DNA of 21,683 bases, taken from positions 1-21,683 of the IMG/VR virus record IMGVR_UViG_3300031951_001383; one strand, given 5' to 3'. This DNA comes from a virus. Within the stretch, counting starts at the first letter, position 1, and each line of letters opens with the position of its first letter. This document shows positions 2,443 to 7,009 of the stretch, piece after piece. The notes below the pieces were generated by a model, which saw nothing but the letters and a program-made list of their open reading frames with translations, was not told the DNA's origin and did no database searches. A program made the position numbers and the translations under genes.

Positions 2443-2607
2443 ATGAAGTCGAAAGAGATCATTGAAATAGTTGCTTATGATCTAGCGAATAATGAGTGTA
2501 CGGCACTACTTATTCGCAACTCTATTGATTCACTTAATCGCGCACTAACTCACTTATACCGTGAAGATCTTAATGCGATGATGCTAGAAATCGAAGGAGC
2601 TAACTAA
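2443..2607 (+). CDS. Small hypothetical protein, first gene of plus operon
   Basis: 54 residues starting MKSKEII. The reading frame is open further upstream, but the start at 2443 is preferred because GGAAGGATC lies just before it and the earlier part runs through the repeat-rich leader. The product is mostly helical by appearance, with acidic and Asn residues and a C-terminal leucine/methionine-rich helix. No family is recognised. It shares one base with the next gene (TAATG). Its codons are typical of this operon: GAT-CTA is common and CTG is absent. Confidence 0.65.
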   Translation: MKSKEIIEIVAYDLANNECTALLIRNSIDSLNRALTHLYREDLNAMMLEIEGAN

Positions 2608-2708
2608 TGAAGCTATTAATGCCGTTTATTGCGTTTATTGTGATCGTCGTACTAACGAATGACGAAATAGCGCAAGGTTTATTCAATCTATTCGTGGCCA
2701 CTAACTAA
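2607..2708 (+). CDS. 33-residue membrane peptide
   Basis: Starts MKLLMPFIAFIVIVV, a single hydrophobic segment at about residues 3-17, then a short polar region and TN at the C-terminus. The ATG overlaps the upstream stop (TAATG), so translation is probably coupled. Such one-pass peptides are frequent in phage early operons and can act on host membrane proteins or as holin-like peptides. Function is unknown. Confidence 0.5.
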   Translation: MKLLMPFIAFIVIVVLTNDEIAQGLFNLFVATN

Positions 2709-2721
2709 GGAGATCAATCTA

Positions 2722-3117
2722 ATGAATAACACAATTAACGAGCTTGGCGCACAATTAGAAGAGATCAAGGCCAAGAGTTGCAAGGCCCGAATCGGCCAAG
2801 AGCTAACGGATCGTGAGATCGCGCTCCGTGATCTATTCGCTATCGCCGACGACTACGAAGGCGACGAAGATCTACGGGATCAAGCTAATGAAGAGATCTA
2901 TGAATTCGCCTATGGTTATGAGACTTACAAGGTGACCCGCCTAACGTGGAGCGGAGGAGGCCCCGCCGATTGGATCGAAGTACATCACGACGGCGACGGT
3001 ATTAAGCGGATCGAATACGTGTTCCAAGATTGGTACGACGGAGCGCGAATAGACGTGCCAAGCGTGTCTCCCGTGTGGCGATACGCCTCCATAATGCTAG
3101 ACGGATTGGAGGCTTAA
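2722..3117 (+). CDS. Conserved-looking hypothetical phage protein, 131 aa
   Basis: Begins at the ATG after the ribosome-binding site AAGGAGATC. The N-terminal 50 residues are acidic and helical (ITDRE/EIALRDLFAIADDYE-like). The C-terminal half, from about residue 66 (YETYKVTRLTWSGGG), has alternating aromatic and acidic strands ending FQDWYDGARI. The phrase 'Y-x-V-T-R-L-x-W-S-G-G-G-P-A-D' followed by a strand-rich tail resembles small actinophage proteins of unknown function. It is the largest ORF in the first operon segment and contains many GATC words. It is unlikely to be a shadow, because the opposite strand lacks a long frame. Confidence 0.8.
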   Translation: MNNTINELGAQLEEIKAKSCKARIGQELTDREIALRDLFAIADDYEGDEDLRDQANEEIYEFAYGYETYKVTRLTWSGGGPADWIEVHHDGDGIKRIEYVFQDWYDGARIDVPSVSPVWRYASIMLDGLEA

Positions 3118-3119
3118 TC

Positions 3120-3263
3120 GTGGAGAATCTAACCAAGCGCGGGGCCTTCGTGTTAGGCGTGGCCGTCGGCCTCCTAATCGTCGGAGCTTATTGGATCACG
3201 GGTAACGTGTGGATCAATGAGACGGGGATCTGCATCGGATCAATGGCCGAATGTAATCTCTAG
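3120..3263 (+). CDS. 47-residue membrane protein
   Basis: Starts at GTG 3120 with GGAGG 8 bases before it, two bases after the upstream stop. The product has a basic start (ENLTKRG), one transmembrane helix (about 9-26, FVLGVAVGLLIVGAYWI) and a short C-terminal tail with two cysteines (ICIGSMAEC), presumably outside. No family is recognised. The frame continues upstream to an ATG at 3030, but that overlaps the preceding gene and has no ribosome-binding site. A 15-bp hairpin follows directly. Confidence 0.6.
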   Translation: MENLTKRGAFVLGVAVGLLIVGAYWITGNVWINETGICIGSMAECNL

Positions 3264-3269
3264 GAGCGT

Positions 3270-3303
3270 ACTATCTCGCACGGCGGGAGCCGTGCGGGGT
3301 AGT
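3270..3303 (+). promoter_or_regulatory. 15-bp intercistronic stem-loop with GGGA tetraloop (element A)
   Basis: Left arm 3270-3284 pairs along its full length with right arm 3289-3303 around loop GGGA; two pairs are G-U. It lies in an 82-base gap between coupled genes. A second stem, TCTGCC (3303-3308) with GGCAGA (3314-3319), follows immediately. No T-run follows, so it is not a classical terminator. It may be an mRNA processing or stability element, or a regulatory fold controlling the next start. G-U pairs favour an RNA role on the plus strand. Confidence 0.7.
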
Positions 3304-3319
3304 CTGCCACTAGGGCAGA
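3303..3319 (+). promoter_or_regulatory. Secondary 6-bp stem-loop beside element A
   Basis: TCTGCC and GGCAGA are perfect complements around loop ACTAG. The first base is shared with the big stem, so the two could stack or compete. Confidence 0.45.
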
Positions 3320-3327
3320 ATCTTAAA

Positions 3328-3344
3328 CCTTGGAAGGGGTTAGC
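3328..3344 (+). promoter_or_regulatory. Repeated ribosome-binding leader, copy 1
   Basis: CCTTGGAAGGGGTTAGC ends one base before the ATG at 3346. The same 12-base core CCTTGGAAGGGG at the same distance precedes the gene at 4142. AAGGGG is the Shine-Dalgarno part. The CCTT just ahead could pair with it, so the site might be self-masking. Confidence 0.65.
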
Positions 3345-3345
3345 T

Positions 3346-3501
3346 ATGAAATACGAGAAGAATCGGGTGAGCCTCGTTGATCTTTCAACGGGAGAAGAGA
3401 TAGTGAGCGCGGATCTAACCGCGCCACGGGTGAAGGCTATCGTGAAGGCCTACGCCTTGGCGGGGATCACACTAGGGCAGAAGGAGCGGGTGAGCGCGTG
3501 A
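3346..3501 (+). CDS. 51-residue hypothetical protein
   Basis: Starts MKYEKNRVSLVDLSTGEEIVSADLTAPRV after the strong leader copy 1. Two short strands followed by a helix (VKAIVKAYALAGITLG) give a compact alpha/beta peptide. Its sequence 'V-D-L-S-T-G-E-E' looks like a beta-hairpin. It ends in RVSA, a C-terminus repeated in two other operon products because the terminal codons double as the next gene's ribosome-binding site. It overlaps the next gene by 4 bases (GTGA). No family is recognised. Confidence 0.65.
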   Translation: MKYEKNRVSLVDLSTGEEIVSADLTAPRVKAIVKAYALAGITLGQKERVSA

Positions 3502-3593
3502 GCGGGGATCTATTGAAGGCCTTGCAAGAGGCGGGGATCTTGCAGATTATCCCCGTCGGATCTTACGAAGAGAAGGGTGAGAAGAGTGAGTAG
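3498..3593 (+). CDS. 31-residue peptide
   Basis: Starts at GTG 3498, overlapping the previous stop by 4 bases. The product is MSGDLLKALQEAGILQIIP followed by an acidic, lysine-rich tail. It has one amphipathic helix and no recognised domain. Support comes from the coupled start, the uninterrupted chain of overlaps on both sides and the lack of any alternative frame. Its small size leaves real doubt. Confidence 0.45.
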   Translation: MSGDLLKALQEAGILQIIPVGSYEEKGEKSE

Positions 3594-3729
3594 AGAATTA
3601 GAAGTGTTACGCGAGGAGTATTGGAGGGTAAGGGCTAATCCTATCTTCGATAACCCCGCCGATTATTGCATTCTCTTGGATCTTATCATTGATCGAATTG
3701 AAGTATTAGAGGGGAGCGAAAGTGAATAA
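3586..3729 (+). CDS. 47-residue hypothetical protein
   Basis: Starts at GTG 3586, 8 bases inside the previous gene, with AAGGGTGAGAAGA ahead of it. The product is helical, MSRELEVLREEYWRVR, then a loop and a second leucine/isoleucine-rich helix (LDLIIDRIEVLEG). A two-helix hairpin of this type can dimerise. The pattern 'LREEYWRVRANP' resembles short phage proteins of unknown role. It overlaps the next gene by 8 bases. Confidence 0.5.
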   Translation: MSRELEVLREEYWRVRANPIFDNPADYCILLDLIIDRIEVLEGSESE

Positions 3730-3913
3730 CGGAGTTAGCACGCTACGTCGTGAGCGTGAGATCCAAGGAGCTACGCTCCTAGACGATAACGATAGATTCT
3801 ATGCAATAGTGGAGGGAGAGAGGCGTTACGGGTACCGTACACACTTCTCGGGCCTCTTCGTATGCTATACGTGCGGTCACTTATGCGAGTGTGGAGAGGA
3901 GGGGGAAGAGTGA
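3722..3913 (+). CDS. 63-residue cysteine-rich protein, possible zinc knuckle
   Basis: Starts at GTG 3722 after GGGGAG. The N-terminal half is polar (TLRREREIQGATLLDDNDRFYAIVEG). The C-terminal quarter holds CYTCGHLCECGEE, that is, four cysteines and one histidine in a 10-residue stretch, suited to bind one zinc. It ends in an acidic tail. No family name is secure. It overlaps the next gene by 4 bases. It is one of several small cysteine-rich proteins in this operon. Confidence 0.6.
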   Translation: MNNGVSTLRREREIQGATLLDDNDRFYAIVEGERRYGYRTHFSGLFVCYTCGHLCECGEEGEE

Positions 3914-4035
3914 TAGGAGATACGAAGGAGGAGATCGTTACGCAATTGAATGATCTAATCTATGGCGAGGATCCTTATAGCTTGGCCGACATAGAAGACA
4001 TAATCGGCGACGGGGATCTATTCGAATACTTATAG
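3910..4035 (+). CDS. 41-residue acidic peptide
   Basis: Starts at GTG 3910 (GTGA overlap). The product is MIGDTKEEIVTQLNDLIYG followed by EDPYSLADIEDIIGDGDLFEYL. It is strongly acidic and probably two helices, which fits a DNA-mimic or partner-binding peptide, but nothing proves that. It is the last gene before structured element B. The frame is short and has no homologue that I recognise. Confidence 0.5.
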   Translation: MIGDTKEEIVTQLNDLIYGEDPYSLADIEDIIGDGDLFEYL

Positions 4036-4063
4036 GGTAAGGTAAGGTCATAGCGGTTAGCTA

Positions 4064-4101
4064 TCTCTTCTCCTCCACGGGCAGACGTGGAGGGGAGGGG
4101 A
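4064..4101 (+). promoter_or_regulatory. 16-bp intercistronic stem-loop (element B)
   Basis: Left arm 4064-4079 pairs with right arm 4086-4101 without a mismatch around loop GGCAGA; three pairs are G-U. It sits in the 106-base gap before the gene at 4142 and, like element A, is preceded by a CTATCTC motif and followed by the CCTTGGAAGGGG leader. There is no T-run. The pyrimidine/purine asymmetry of the arms would also make an unusual DNA tract. Confidence 0.7.
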
Positions 4102-4123
4102 GGGTAAATCGCCCTAATAAATA

Positions 4124-4140
4124 CCTTGGAAGGGGTAAGT
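4124..4140 (+). promoter_or_regulatory. Repeated ribosome-binding leader, copy 2
   Basis: CCTTGGAAGGGGTAAGT matches copy 1 at 3328-3344 in 15 of 17 positions, with identical spacing to the start codon. The GCCCT at 4111-4115 could pair with the AGGGG of this site, which would connect the upstream structure with access to the start. Confidence 0.65.
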
Positions 4141-4141
4141 A

Positions 4142-4408
4142 ATGAACGTAGTATGCAAGAGCAAGGAGATCCAGAGCTACGTGAAGGATCTTGAAATAGA
4201 AGTGGAGGGTGAGATCTATCGCGCCACTCTTACTTACGATAGCGAATGCGGTTATGAATTAGCATTCTATGGTAGTGATGATAAGGGAATTGAATGGCCC
4301 GAATGGGCAGATAAGTACGATAACGCTACACGCTCACTAGAGTATGACTTAGATTGGGAGAGCGGTAATTGGAGATTCGTAACGCCTAGTGAAGAGGCGG
4401 TGGCGTAA
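4142..4408 (+). CDS. 88-residue hypothetical protein
   Basis: Starts MNVVCKSKEIQSYVKDLEIEVEGEIYRATLTYDSECGYEL. It begins with a helix, then several beta strands rich in acidic and aromatic residues (IEWPEWADKYD, LEYDLDWESGNWRF). The composition, with several tryptophans and strong negative charge, suggests a small all-beta, possibly DNA-mimicking or protein-binding fold. The start is fixed by the strong leader at 4124-4140. It overlaps the next gene by one base (TAATG). No family is recognised. Confidence 0.75.
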   Translation: MNVVCKSKEIQSYVKDLEIEVEGEIYRATLTYDSECGYELAFYGSDDKGIEWPEWADKYDNATRSLEYDLDWESGNWRFVTPSEEAVA

Positions 4409-4752
4409 TGAATGCTAAGCACGATAGATTCTTAAATCACGTATCGCGTAAGTGCGTGGACACGTGGACGTTAGATAACAATTACCGCGTGAAGGTGTAC
4501 ACCTACCACGATAAGAATAAAAAATCTTATTGGAGCATAATCAGTGAGTGTACGGTAGAAGAGAGTGGTACGACGGGGATCTATTTCGAGAGACACACGG
4601 TACACACTAGCCTTAATCAATTAGCTGGCAAGGTGGAGGCTCTTCGATTTAATGGTGATTCTATGGTGAAGGCGCACGATAGCGCCATTGATTCAGTACG
4701 CGATCTAGTGGATCAATTATTGGAGCTTAATAAGGAGAAGGTGAGTGCATAA
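4408..4752 (+). CDS. 114-residue hypothetical protein
   Basis: The N-terminus MNAKHDRFLNHVSRKCVDTWTLDNNYRVKVYTYHDKN is followed by beta strands (YWSIISECTVEE, TGIYFERHTVHTS) and a C-terminal helical region ending KEKVSA. The repeated strand pattern 'VKVYTY...SYWSIIS' is typical of small globular alpha/beta proteins. It is coupled to both neighbours by one-base TAATG overlaps. The terminal VSA is dictated by the ribosome-binding site of the following gene. Function is unknown. Confidence 0.75.
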   Translation: MNAKHDRFLNHVSRKCVDTWTLDNNYRVKVYTYHDKNKKSYWSIISECTVEESGTTGIYFERHTVHTSLNQLAGKVEALRFNGDSMVKAHDSAIDSVRDLVDQLLELNKEKVSA

Positions 4753-4898
4753 TGGATAAGTGTAGATTCTGCGGGTTACGTGGGCTAGTGCTATCTACTA
4801 TTAATGCAGACTATTCTTGCGAGCATTGCGGAGAGTGGCAGAATGCGATCCTTAATAGTGCTTGGATAATCGTAGGTTATGGGAAGGTGAGCGCATAA
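4752..4898 (+). CDS. 48-residue zinc-ribbon peptide
   Basis: The sequence holds CRFC near the start and CEHC at about residues 23-26, two CxxC knuckles about 17 residues apart, the layout of a rubredoxin-like zinc ribbon. After it comes a hydrophobic segment (AILNSAWIIVGYG) and the KVSA terminus. It probably binds zinc and may contact nucleic acid or a host transcription protein. Both ends are coupled (TAATG overlaps). Confidence 0.65.
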   Translation: MDKCRFCGLRGLVLSTINADYSCEHCGEWQNAILNSAWIIVGYGKVSA

Positions 4899-5182
4899 TG
4901 AGCTACGACTACCGTGTTACCTTCGTAACCGATTACTTAACGATCACTACCAACGTATGTCTAGAAGGTGACGATCACTTTCAGAATTTAAGTGATGAGG
5001 CGTACGAGCAAGCGACTATCAACGGTATGAATAACATAGAAGACGAGATCGGGAAGATAGACGAGACGATTATCAATGACATAACCGTTACCTTATTGCT
5101 AGACGATGAGGAAATAGAACTGGGAGGGTTTGGAGAATTCCCTCCAGTACACGTATCGGTAATAGAAGGAGAGGGAGAGTAA
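4898..5182 (+). CDS. 94-residue acidic hypothetical protein
   Basis: I chose the ATG at 4898 rather than the frame's earlier possible start at 4862, because it follows AAGGTGAGCGCATA and gives the usual one-base overlap. The product starts MSYDYRVTFVTDYLTITTNV, beta-rich, then a helix (LSDEAYEQATINGMNNIEDEIG) and further strands (DITVTLLLDDEEIELGGFG). It has a very acidic C-terminus. No family is recognised. A long minus-strand frame over this region is a shadow. Confidence 0.7.
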   Translation: MSYDYRVTFVTDYLTITTNVCLEGDDHFQNLSDEAYEQATINGMNNIEDEIGKIDETIINDITVTLLLDDEEIELGGFGEFPPVHVSVIEGEGE

Positions 5183-5322
5183 TGGATCAAGACACTATGT
5201 ACTGGAGCGAGCTTGCAGAATTGACACACGCTACCCAAGTGGAGCGATTTAATTTCTGCACGTGTGAAGATAATGAAGGACAAGATAACCCATACGACGA
5301 CTGCCCGAAGGAGGATAAGTAA
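5182..5322 (+). CDS. 46-residue hypothetical peptide
   Basis: Starts MDQDTMYWSELAELTHATQVERF and holds three cysteines in FCTC...DC. It is acidic and ends in KEDK. It overlaps both neighbours by one base and is preceded by GGAGAGGGAGAG, a good ribosome-binding stretch. No domain is recognised; a metal site with three cysteines is possible. Confidence 0.55.
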   Translation: MDQDTMYWSELAELTHATQVERFNFCTCEDNEGQDNPYDDCPKEDK

Positions 5323-5564
5323 TGAATGAAGAGACATCAGCAACGCACGTAATAACGGTAGTGATCCAAGCGGGATCTAAGTGGAATAAGGTAGAGCTAT
5401 TTGATTTCAGCGGTGAAGAGCCTACCTTGTTAGCCTCGGGAGAGGCGAGCAATTGGCGCACGGCGTTAGGAGAGGCACTATCTAAGATCTCACTATCCTC
5501 GGACGTGCCAGACAAGGCCGTGAACGACGTGGTGAAGGAGATCCAAGAGGAGGCGGGTGAGTAA
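5322..5564 (+). CDS. 80-residue hypothetical protein
   Basis: Starts MNEETSATHVITVVIQAG after GAAGGAGGATAAG. Two beta strands (HVITVVIQAGSKWNKVELFDF) are followed by helices (NWRTALGEALSKISLSS; AVNDVVKEIQEEAGE). A compact alpha/beta fold is likely. No family is recognised. It is coupled to the next gene by TAATG. Confidence 0.7.
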   Translation: MNEETSATHVITVVIQAGSKWNKVELFDFSGEEPTLLASGEASNWRTALGEALSKISLSSDVPDKAVNDVVKEIQEEAGE

Positions 5565-5683
5565 TGGGATACGGTAAGTGTTGGGTATGCGCTTCGATTA
5601 TGTCTGGAGATAGTCAGACTATCGAGGGCAAAGTAAAGTGCGATAGGTGCGGTTGGGTATCAATTAAGGACGGGAGTTACTAA
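5564..5683 (+). CDS. 39-residue zinc-ribbon peptide
   Basis: MGYGKCWVC and later CDRCGW give two CxxC pairs about 17 residues apart, consistent with a minimal zinc ribbon. GAGGAGGCGGGTGAG lies ahead of its start. It is similar in plan to the peptide at 4752-4898, so the two may be diverged copies. One-base overlaps on both sides. Confidence 0.65.
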   Translation: MGYGKCWVCASIMSGDSQTIEGKVKCDRCGWVSIKDGSY

Positions 5684-5898
5684 TGGGATACGAGCCAGAG
5701 CTTAACGATCCTATCTTCTATGAAGAGGAGAAGGAGAGGGAGATCAAGTGCTTCTTATGTTCAGAGCCACTAGATCAAGACGACGTAGTGTGGGCAGACT
5801 GTGAAGGCCTATGGCAAGTAAGAGGGAAAGAGGGTAACGATACTGCGTGGTGCGTATCGTGTTTACCAAGCGAGAAGGAAGAGGAGAGTAATGAATAA
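5683..5898 (+). CDS. 71-residue cysteine-rich protein
   Basis: An acidic N-terminus (EPELNDPIFYEEEKERE) leads to CFLC at about residues 23-26 and CVSC at about 57-60, with a conserved-looking WADCEGLWQVRGKEG between. The C(x2)C...C(x2)C plan fits a treble-clef or ribbon zinc site, related in style to HNH or LIM-like knuckles but without catalytic His/Asn. The start GTTACTAATGG gives a TAATG overlap. Unknown role. Confidence 0.65.
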   Translation: MGYEPELNDPIFYEEEKEREIKCFLCSEPLDQDDVVWADCEGLWQVRGKEGNDTAWCVSCLPSEKEEESNE

Positions 5899-6058
5899 AG
5901 AATACTGGCAAGCTAAGGCAGAATTGTGCCGTGACCTAGCCTTAACCCAGATCCAAGAAGAGGAGACAGAGAAGGAGGCGGGTATGAATCTAATGCGTAT
6001 GACCTACGCCTTGTCTATGGTTGATGCCTATTCAGAAGGGAAGGGAGAGAATGAGTAG
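5891..6058 (+). CDS. 55-residue helical hypothetical protein
   Basis: Starts MNKEYWQAKAELCRDLALTQIQEEE, then a second helix (AGMNLMRMTYALSMVDAYSEG). It is probably an all-helical hairpin. GAAGGAAGAGGAGAG precedes the start; the gene overlaps both neighbours by 8 bases. No family is recognised. Confidence 0.6.
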   Translation: MNKEYWQAKAELCRDLALTQIQEEETEKEAGMNLMRMTYALSMVDAYSEGKGENE

Positions 6059-6356
6059 AGTCCTACGCTTCGATAGCAATGGAGATCCATTTTTAGGAGA
6101 TCCAGACGACAGGATAATTGCATTCCACCCTCGCGTCTCGCCACTTGTGAACCTATACGAAGTGGTAGATGAGAAGGGTGAGGCTATCTGGGGTGGCAAC
6201 GACACACACGAAGCTATCCGCTACCTACGCAATAGCCCTGTCAATTGCAGAATCCTTGTGTCGGGGTGGGAAAGTGACGACGAAGATGCTCACCTTGTAG
6301 GCCAACCCATTGACATCACCAAGCTTGTCTATGCGGTATTGGCGGTGAATCAATGA
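6051..6356 (+). CDS. 101-residue hypothetical protein
   Basis: The ATG at 6051 is preferred over the frame's earlier start at 6021 because AGGGAAGGGAGAG lies just upstream and the overlap is then 8 bases. It begins MSRVLRFDSNGDPFLGDPDD. Strands and a short helix (NDTHEAIRYLRNSP) follow, then VNCRILVSGWESDDEDAHLVGQPIDITKLV. The alternation suggests a small alpha/beta domain. From here on CTG/CAG words become common, as elsewhere in the phage, unlike in the first half of the operon. No family is recognised. Confidence 0.7.
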   Translation: MSRVLRFDSNGDPFLGDPDDRIIAFHPRVSPLVNLYEVVDEKGEAIWGGNDTHEAIRYLRNSPVNCRILVSGWESDDEDAHLVGQPIDITKLVYAVLAVNQ

Positions 6357-6436
6357 GCTATTTCTTGGGTATCCTAGGCGTAATGCTAGTGGCATACGTC
6401 CTAATTGTATGGGAGGATAGGATCAATGGACAATGA
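6353..6436 (+). CDS. 27-residue membrane peptide
   Basis: The ATGA overlap with the upstream stop starts MSYFLGILGVMLVAYVLIVWEDRINGQ, a single transmembrane helix with a short charged tail. It overlaps the next gene by 11 bases. It is very short, but the helix, coupling and chain of overlaps support it. Function is unknown. Confidence 0.5.
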   Translation: MSYFLGILGVMLVAYVLIVWEDRINGQ

Positions 6437-6710
6437 GAAGAGATTGGCGAGTGCTGCAAAGCAGGCCGTCTATTACCGTAACTACCGAAGAGCAAGAGAT
6501 CGTGCCTTGGTGAAGCTGGCGCAAGCCTACCCAGACGCGTATAAAGAATTGCTGGAGAAGGAAAAGGTGAGTGATGAGCAAGAAGGCAAAGCGTGGATTG
6601 ATCTTAACGGGACTACTCTTAGTCCTCGTATCGTTGCACGTGCAAAGGCTAGGGGAATTACCATTGCCCAAGCCGATACAAACCAAGGCAACAATGGAGG
6701 AGAAGAGTGA
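6426..6710 (+). CDS. 94-residue conserved-looking actinophage protein
   Basis: I start it at 6426 (after GGGAGGATAGGATCA) rather than 6405. It contains a basic helix YYRNYRRARDRALVKLAQAYPDAYKELLEKEK that resembles a segment common in small actinobacteriophage proteins of unknown function, then a C-terminal region rich in Arg/Ala (RIVARAKARG). The basic helical N-terminal half could bind DNA or RNA. Its last 137 bases are also covered by the start of the transglycosylase-like gene in another frame, so its C-terminus is dual-coded if both calls hold. Confidence 0.7.
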   Translation: MDNEKRLASAAKQAVYYRNYRRARDRALVKLAQAYPDAYKELLEKEKVSDEQEGKAWIDLNGTTLSPRIVARAKARGITIAQADTNQGNNGGEE

Positions 6711-6999
6711 GAACAGAAAACTTGCATACAAATTTAGTAAAGCTCTCGGTTATACGAGAGCAGAAACGACGTGCCTCCTACGACTTTGGACCCGTGAATC
6801 CCGCTTCGACCACCTTGGTTTCCCAAAGAACTCTAAGGGAGAACCAATTAGCTCAGCTTTCGGAATTGCTCAACTCCTTAGAGAACGTAGTAGAGAGCCT
6901 GAACTACAAATCCTTCACGGCCTACGATACATTGGTCACCGCTACGGAGGGAGTGCGTGTCGCGCTCTCAGCCATAGCGACAGACGAGGCTGGTACTGA
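6574..6999 (+). CDS. Lytic transglycosylase-like (SLT) secreted protein
   Basis: 141 residues from the ATG at 6574, after AAGGTGAGTG. The first about 22 residues (basic KKAKRG, then a hydrophobic stretch) form a signal peptide or membrane anchor, which supports this start despite the large overlap with the upstream gene. The catalytic domain begins near residue 59 with GYTRAETTCLLRLWTRESRFD, with Glu75 as the likely catalytic acid. SSAFGIAQLL and LRYIGHRYGGS...GWY follow, all typical of phage and actinobacterial SLT-fold proteins that cleave peptidoglycan glycan strands. It is far from the lysis cassette, so it might act at entry or remodel the wall early. The overlapping frame 6707-7009 competes with it. 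Confidence 0.75.
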   Translation: MSKKAKRGLILTGLLLVLVSLHVQRLGELPLPKPIQTKATMEEKSENRKLAYKFSKALGYTRAETTCLLRLWTRESRFDHLGFPKNSKGEPISSAFGIAQLLRERSREPELQILHGLRYIGHRYGGSACRALSHSDRRGWY

Positions 7000-7009
7000 T
7001 ACAGTCTGA
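6707..7009 (+). CDS. Possible overlapping 100-residue ORF
   Basis: GTG at 6707 overlaps the preceding stop by 4 bases, exactly the operon's habit. The frame stays open for 100 codons (MRTENLHTNLVKLSVIREQ... to GTDTV) inside the transglycosylase gene. The product is Leu/Ser/Thr-rich and helical, with no recognised motif. The SLT frame has clear family motifs, so this is more probably a shadow. The coupled start keeps it open as a dual-coded gene. Confidence 0.25.
   Translation: MRTENLHTNLVKLSVIREQKRRASYDFGPVNPASTTLVSQRTLRENQLAQLSELLNSLENVVESLNYKSFTAYDTLVTATEGVRVALSAIATDEAGTDTV

Follow-up and report, generated by a model that had tools for sequence, protein, structure and literature searches.

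On the best explanation of the sequence data, two sites in an operon of a freshwater actinophage each carry a copy of a structured RNA module that has not been described before and is located at gene junctions. From the comparison of relatives we hold it nearly certain that a conserved RNA structure with the helices P1, P2 and P3 exists at these gene boundaries. Its function is inferred: with a probability of roughly 0.45, the module affects translation at the gene boundary, where a ribosome-sensitive fold most likely insulates the cistrons from each other. First among its parts is P1a, a 5' strand lying at or beside the stop codon of the upstream gene; the long stem P2 comes next, then the hairpin P3 with a loop complementary to P1a, and a spacer leads on to a Shine-Dalgarno box and the AUG. 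The two copies, element 1 (E1) and element 2 (E2), lie in the window, by which we mean the whole stretch of DNA analysed (21,683 bases of an IMG/VR virus record); their features are listed in Table 1.

The window encodes a WhiB-like protein on the minus strand, and its terminase has its best matches in the Planktophila phages F5 and E7 (47%), followed by Streptomyces phages (43%); OX376641 is the cultured Nanopelagicales phage F5 (PMC10202952), and F5 and E7 have LanE-43 as their host. The hosts of the window phage and its relatives are probably abundant, mostly uncultured freshwater actinobacteria. The operon, on the plus strand at approximately 2443-7009, consists of small genes that, except at the two element-bearing gaps, mostly overlap or almost abut; Pfam and PHROGs searches with its protein families gave no significant match. 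As the original prediction had claimed, the hairpins occupy the only long gaps of the operon, 82 nt for E1 and 106 nt for E2. At the remaining plus-strand junctions the genes apparently overlap or lie no more than about 12 nt apart, distances being taken from the list of genes together with a reading of the sequence. No tRNA genes were found in the window. Between the divergent terminase and the operon lie some 860 bases without an evident gene (1580-2440), rich in GCCTTGGATC-like repeats, where an origin or promoter region is possible. The sequence GGTAAGGTA is present at 2381-2390 and 4036-4047, ahead of the first operon gene and ahead of E2, and GGTAAGGTAAGG is conserved in relatives at the latter site; a promoter or another shared site is possible.

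Table 1. Features of the two elements and of the genes that flank them (window positions).
Feature	Position	Strand	Basis
E1, upstream gene: small one-helix membrane protein, GTG start	3120..3263	+	
E1, P1a: CTCTAG, complementary to the P3 loop	3258..3263	+	P1 covaries across the family
E1, P2: 15-bp stem, GGGA loop	3270..3303	+	folding, comparison of relatives
E1, P3 hairpin: TCTGCC-ACTAG-GGCAGA, loop contains P1b (CTAG 3310-3313)	3303..3319	+	
E1, ribosome-binding box: AACCTT-GGAA-GGGGTT, with Shine-Dalgarno-like GGAAGGGG	3326..3341	+	
Gene 3' of E1: 51 aa, function unknown	3346..3501	+	
Gene 5' of E2: stop TAG 4033-4035	3910..4035	+	
E2, P1a: GCGGTT, partner AATCGC 4107-4112	4053..4058	+	
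E2, P2: 16-bp stem, GGCAGA loop	4064..4101	+	folding, comparison of relatives
E2, P3 hairpin: AGGGT-AAATC-GCCCT	4101..4115	+	
E2, ribosome-binding box: TACCTT-GGAA-GGGGTA	4122..4137	+	
Gene 3' of E2: 88 aa, exchanged for other genes in relatives	4142..4408	+	

Both long stems were recovered as first described, with the lengths, apical loops and coordinates of Table 1 (ACTATCTCGCACGGC-GGGA-GCCGTGCGGGGTAGT in E1). The stem of E1 had a predicted energy of -27.5 kcal/mol (z = -8.1 versus dinucleotide shuffles, 0 of 200 shuffles being as good), and E2 (z = -6.1 versus dinucleotide shuffles) has three additional pairs beyond the 16 bp. Overlooked at that stage were the 3' hairpin P3 and the loop-to-stop-codon pairing P1, the core of which in E1 is CUAG:CUAG (3260-3263 with 3310-3313). 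The motif CTATCTC had been said to precede both stems; this was not the case, as it is the 5' arm of the stem in E1 and overlaps the stem base in E2, and it corresponds to (A/C)CUAUC, the consensus of the whole family at the base of P2. The repeated leader CCTTGGAAGGGG indeed has two and only two copies in the window (3328-3339 and 4124-4135), each 6 nt ahead of an ATG (3346 and 4142). The box containing it can fold as a separate weak hairpin with a GGAA loop (-4.8 to -5.0 kcal/mol), with an outer pair that is A-U in E1 and U-A in E2, and it is conserved beyond need (CCUU ahead of GGAAGGGG). In relatives, CCTTGGAAGGGG was invariant in 14 element-1 and 10 element-2 sequences; the element-2 sequences were found partly via this motif, and the protein search independently recovered it. 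Distant groups use other Shine-Dalgarno sequences.

Close relatives were gathered from IMG/VR by two protein searches and a DNA pattern search, and distant relatives by a search with the ORF 4408 family. More than 15 distinct related contigs carry both elements in the same position. Distant contigs have wholly different stems on the same plan, often with two to four elements per operon, and the same architecture stands ahead of many other genes. A CUAG-type element is present in L072 (1179-1243). A MAFFT alignment of 16 distant elements yielded the consensus nCTAGTGnTTGACTATC...GGTAGnnnGnnACTAG. At 40 bits or more, the covariance model R1, built from P2 and P3, matched the sense strand 51 times in about 35 contigs, a tally that treats the window and its near-identical relative as separate contigs and includes the model-building sequences. 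Run on both strands of 15 whole records, it returned one to four matches in each of 14, at operon places already known. E2 was not scored by R1, and its membership therefore rests on architecture and position. A strict DNA pattern in IMG/VR matched only within the same contig group, where one contig was new. Two candidates were rejected: the single pattern match in an 84,980-species genome collection, a Sphingobacterium MAG, was considered chance because R1 does not match it, and L011 has a match to the leader pattern only, without an element. One element, compared by BLASTN with 50,697 phage records, had no match, and none was found in cultured phages.

Relatives without compensatory base pairs or a conserved leader would have refuted the original prediction. 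Such pairs were present and, along with the conservation of the leader, support the proposal that RNA elements divide the operon. Covariation over the 24 pairs of 16 divergent elements was 0.629, compared with 0.222±0.023 for shuffled alignments and at most 0.228 for slid registers; 89.3% of the cells in this alignment pair, and both sides have changed in 20 of the 24 pairs. P1 alone scored 0.464 (shuffled: 0.234±0.042) and P3 alone 0.589 (shuffled: 0.206±0.046). Because loop length varies, only 71.6% of the P3 cells pair in a fixed register and the slid controls fall less sharply (0.450 at -1). For P1, a second set (A5) gave 0.700 versus 0.350, with 2 of 500 shuffles as high. In an E2-like group (L046, L047, L059, L060, L061) P3 keeps an unchanged stem while its loop covaries with the 5' strand (AUCA with UGAU, AUCC with GGGU, ACUU with AAGU), both sides having changed in three of six P1 pairs; the stem of E2 has five doubly changed pairs. 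In the 19 curated elements the loops have 110 positions, 97 of which pair with the 5' strand, and the complementarity of loop and strand was 11.37, against 8.41±0.38 for shuffled and 9.24±0.41 for swapped sequences (0 of 2000 in each case). This curated list was cleaner than the output of the automatic element finder, which contained some false positives in coding regions; it was curated with the architecture in view, so that the slid-register controls are the more independent ones.

The suggestion that the G-U pairs of the stems fit selection on RNA held in a set of 18 P2 stems, where U is on the 5' arm in 34 G-U pairs and G in 11. Folding is much more favourable for the sense than for the antisense strand (-41.1 versus -29.0 and -40.8 versus -19.9 kcal/mol), and R1 always scores the sense strand of a match above the opposite strand (e.g. 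60.2 versus 35.6 bits). These asymmetries bear on a reading at the level of DNA, as a protein-binding inverted repeat or a recombination boundary of the kind proposed for ESAS. The swapping of genes immediately after E2, with the flank unchanged, would suit such an element. However, the stems diverge completely and yet keep their pairing, U-G pairs make the two strands asymmetric, and R1 scores are much higher on the sense strand. The compensatory changes, including those involving G-U pairs, thus disfavour a DNA-level element, which we regard as extremely unlikely.

The boundary and stop-codon anatomy of E1-type elements is well supported by the comparison. An upstream ORF of at least 30 codons stops at -4 to +5 nt of the start of P1a in 19 of 28 curated elements, while no stop was called in this interval in the other 9, and the AUG lies 18-30 nt past P3 in 24 of the 28. 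Given the general footprint of an initiating ribosome, the end of P3 would therefore fall near the 5' edge of the initiating-ribosome site. E1 obeys the rule for the position of the stop codon, with the TAG at 3261-3263 lying within P1a, whereas E2 breaks it, the upstream stop ending 17 nt ahead of P1a. Genes for a small one-helix membrane protein precede an E1-type element in L009, L042 and L051 as well. The protein encoded at 3120-3263 has a C-terminal Cys pair (CIGSMAEC; in relatives CIGTLASC, CLGSMTKC and CWGTLAQC), and a Cys-pair one-helix protein is found directly 5' of E1-type elements in several distant phages. Stop-codon read-through or frameshifting at E1 was considered and rejected: the upstream frame has a further stop where the stem ends, and several relatives have the downstream frame closed on its upstream side.

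From the position of P1a at the stop codon we infer a gene-junction RNA that senses ribosomes as they complete the upstream gene, or gives insulation from them. A terminating ribosome would cover P1a, so that P1 and translation of the upstream end would be exclusive in time. With such a ribosome in place, P1 would be blocked and P2 plus P3 would remain; in its absence P1 would be free to form and would either make a pseudoknot with P3 or replace P3 by an extended rod. The strong structure just past the stop codon would limit run-on or re-initiation, the downstream gene would initiate from its own Shine-Dalgarno box immediately 3' of P3, and the structure would thereby separate or couple the two cistrons. 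According to a review (PMC12548453), Chemla et al. found lower translational coupling with structure immediately past a stop codon, which favours an insulating role.

Either P1 and P3 coexist in a pseudoknot or they are alternative states, with similar computed stabilities, and comparison cannot separate the two. A loop of 4-7 nt in nearly all elements and a complementarity that is often exact (L042, both elements of L066) are compatible with a pseudoknot; the extension of P1 pairing into the P3 stem in several elements is compatible with alternation. The energy of the rod minus that of P3 ranged from -9.1 to +6.3 kcal/mol; in 15 of the 19 elements the two differed by no more than 4 kcal/mol. 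These values are nearest-neighbour estimates that exclude pseudoknots. Neither P1 nor P3 masks the Shine-Dalgarno box of E1 or E2, and a direct on/off route to initiation is therefore not visible. It is possible, if rather doubtful, that the module belongs to a new class of intercistronic RNA switch, or switchable pseudoknot, on the stop codon, whose fold is set by the terminating ribosome via the pairing of the P3 loop with P1a. If true, phages would reuse this portable device at many junctions to decide on the joint or separate reading of neighbouring genes. What appears to be an undescribed phage RNA family offers a natural covarying series linking the stop codon to a downstream fold, and gene spacing and tuning within one phage operon thereby become directly testable.

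The main rival of an action on translation is mRNA processing or stability, in which an RNase III cut or 3'-end shielding upstream, with 5'-end protection downstream, would create segments of different lifetime. It would account for long stems placed just past stop codons and 18-30 nt ahead of the AUG, for rods of approximately 25 bp formed by P1 plus P2, for the sequence independence of the apical loop of E1 and for the confinement of the elements to the only long gaps of the operon. Processing alone, however, leaves unexplained that the P3 loop is complementary to the stop-codon strand while P3 is conserved too. We thus infer that translation at the boundary is the favoured reading and consider processing unlikely.

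A hairpin right past a stop codon is the usual place of a terminator, and alternative pairings close to a stop codon resemble attenuators. Both features would suit a transcription attenuator or anti-terminator site, terminators without a U-tract included. Nevertheless, the terminator scan revealed no U-tract at E1 or E2 and one terminator at the end of the operon (7047), and genes resume directly after each element, which leaves control of transcription very unlikely in our judgement.

E2 is nearly invariant among close relatives, and the gene that follows it differs between them: the slot is occupied by an 88-aa, a 43/44-aa or a 114-aa protein (the last being the window's next gene) or by a longer unrelated one. 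An element that stays constant while the following gene changes is therefore not owned by that gene. At 4136-4150 of the window and in close relatives, at least three unrelated genes were seen directly behind the unchanged E2 leader. The gene downstream of E1 (DLTEARAKAIVKAYALAGL type) is found in L042-L049 directly behind other genes and without the element; that gene thus does not need the element, and gene and element are separable both ways.

Several copies per operon, a foot of conserved sequence, (A/C)CUAUC, with one pair that is almost always U-G (13 of 16), and balanced alternative pairings are also what might be expected of an operator bound by an RNA-binding protein of phage or host, or of a ligand-sensing leader, that co-regulates several genes (compare the T4 gene 32 pseudoknot, which serves one gene). 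Against this, apical loops and most of the stem sequence are free to vary and no conserved pocket was seen. Among close relatives of E1 the apical loop varies freely and stem pairing is kept (C-G to U-A and G-C to U-G changes), which argues against an apical loop that binds a ligand or protein, and the family alignment, inspected for a riboswitch ligand core, contained no invariant unpaired core, its loops varying freely. We consider an operator or ligand-sensing leader quite unlikely.

The nearest analogue of the module is SAS/ESAS of cluster K mycobacteriophages, with similar motifs in Microbacterium cluster EF phages (PMC3203893, PMC7302621). Common to both are several copies among actinophage non-structural genes, in unusually long gaps, and an inverted repeat 5' of a conserved ribosome-binding-site box ahead of genes of different families; the SAS/ESAS trait of an imperfect inverted repeat with a short spacer in a non-coding gap before different gene families is met. 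Membership, however, fails on sequence and on RNA pairing. Module sequences differ, and the 13-bp SAS consensus GGGATAGGAGCCC had three matches with 2-3 mismatches versus 4.4 expected, none of them at E1 or E2. The ESAS authors found that repeat variation does not support RNA pairing and argued for DNA-binding sites over RNA hairpins, whereas repeat changes in the module do support RNA pairing; moreover, the module has the extra 3' hairpin and the loop pairing at the upstream stop codon. For the SAS/ESAS motifs of other actinophages, which are unexplained, it provides a concrete counterpart made of RNA.

The leader of T4 gene 32 was in 2010 called perhaps the sole viral pseudoknot for translational autoregulation (PMC3014915). 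Like the module, the T4/T2 gene 32 mRNA is a phage transcript with a possible pseudoknot 5' of its ribosome-binding site, but it concerns a single autoregulated gene with an A+U-rich gp32-binding stretch (PMC3014915), whereas the module is present in multiple copies before unrelated small genes, contains a long inserted stem and is tied to the stop codon upstream. Translational coupling by RNA unfolding (f1 VII/IX, MS2 coat/lysis, rpmI-rplT) likewise involves a structure between cistrons that ribosomes can disturb, in single cases with a masked downstream start site (PMC12548453); the module, in contrast, is repeated and its own Shine-Dalgarno box is at most weakly paired. A stop codon in or adjoining a strand of the structure, as in these systems, is met by E1 and at least 19 of 28 elements, not by E2.

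No Rfam 15 family exceeded its gathering cut-off, either in the window or in any of 12 related loci; within 3200-4200 nothing matched at E values up to 5. No description of this RNA was found in the open-access literature; most subscription journals lie outside this coverage, and novelty is therefore provisional. A weak R1 match in the cultured phage F5 (11.3 bits, E = 0.57 over 60 kb) is a lead and not a member of the family. This strong rod (L103, OX376641, about 6650-6715, minus strand) has its start at the stop codon that closes a 399-codon ORF and extends into AAGGAGG and the ATG of an 89-aa gene. Its outer helix is predicted to join CUCUC to the Shine-Dalgarno region downstream, and the sequence of the rod is identical in E7 (OX376640).
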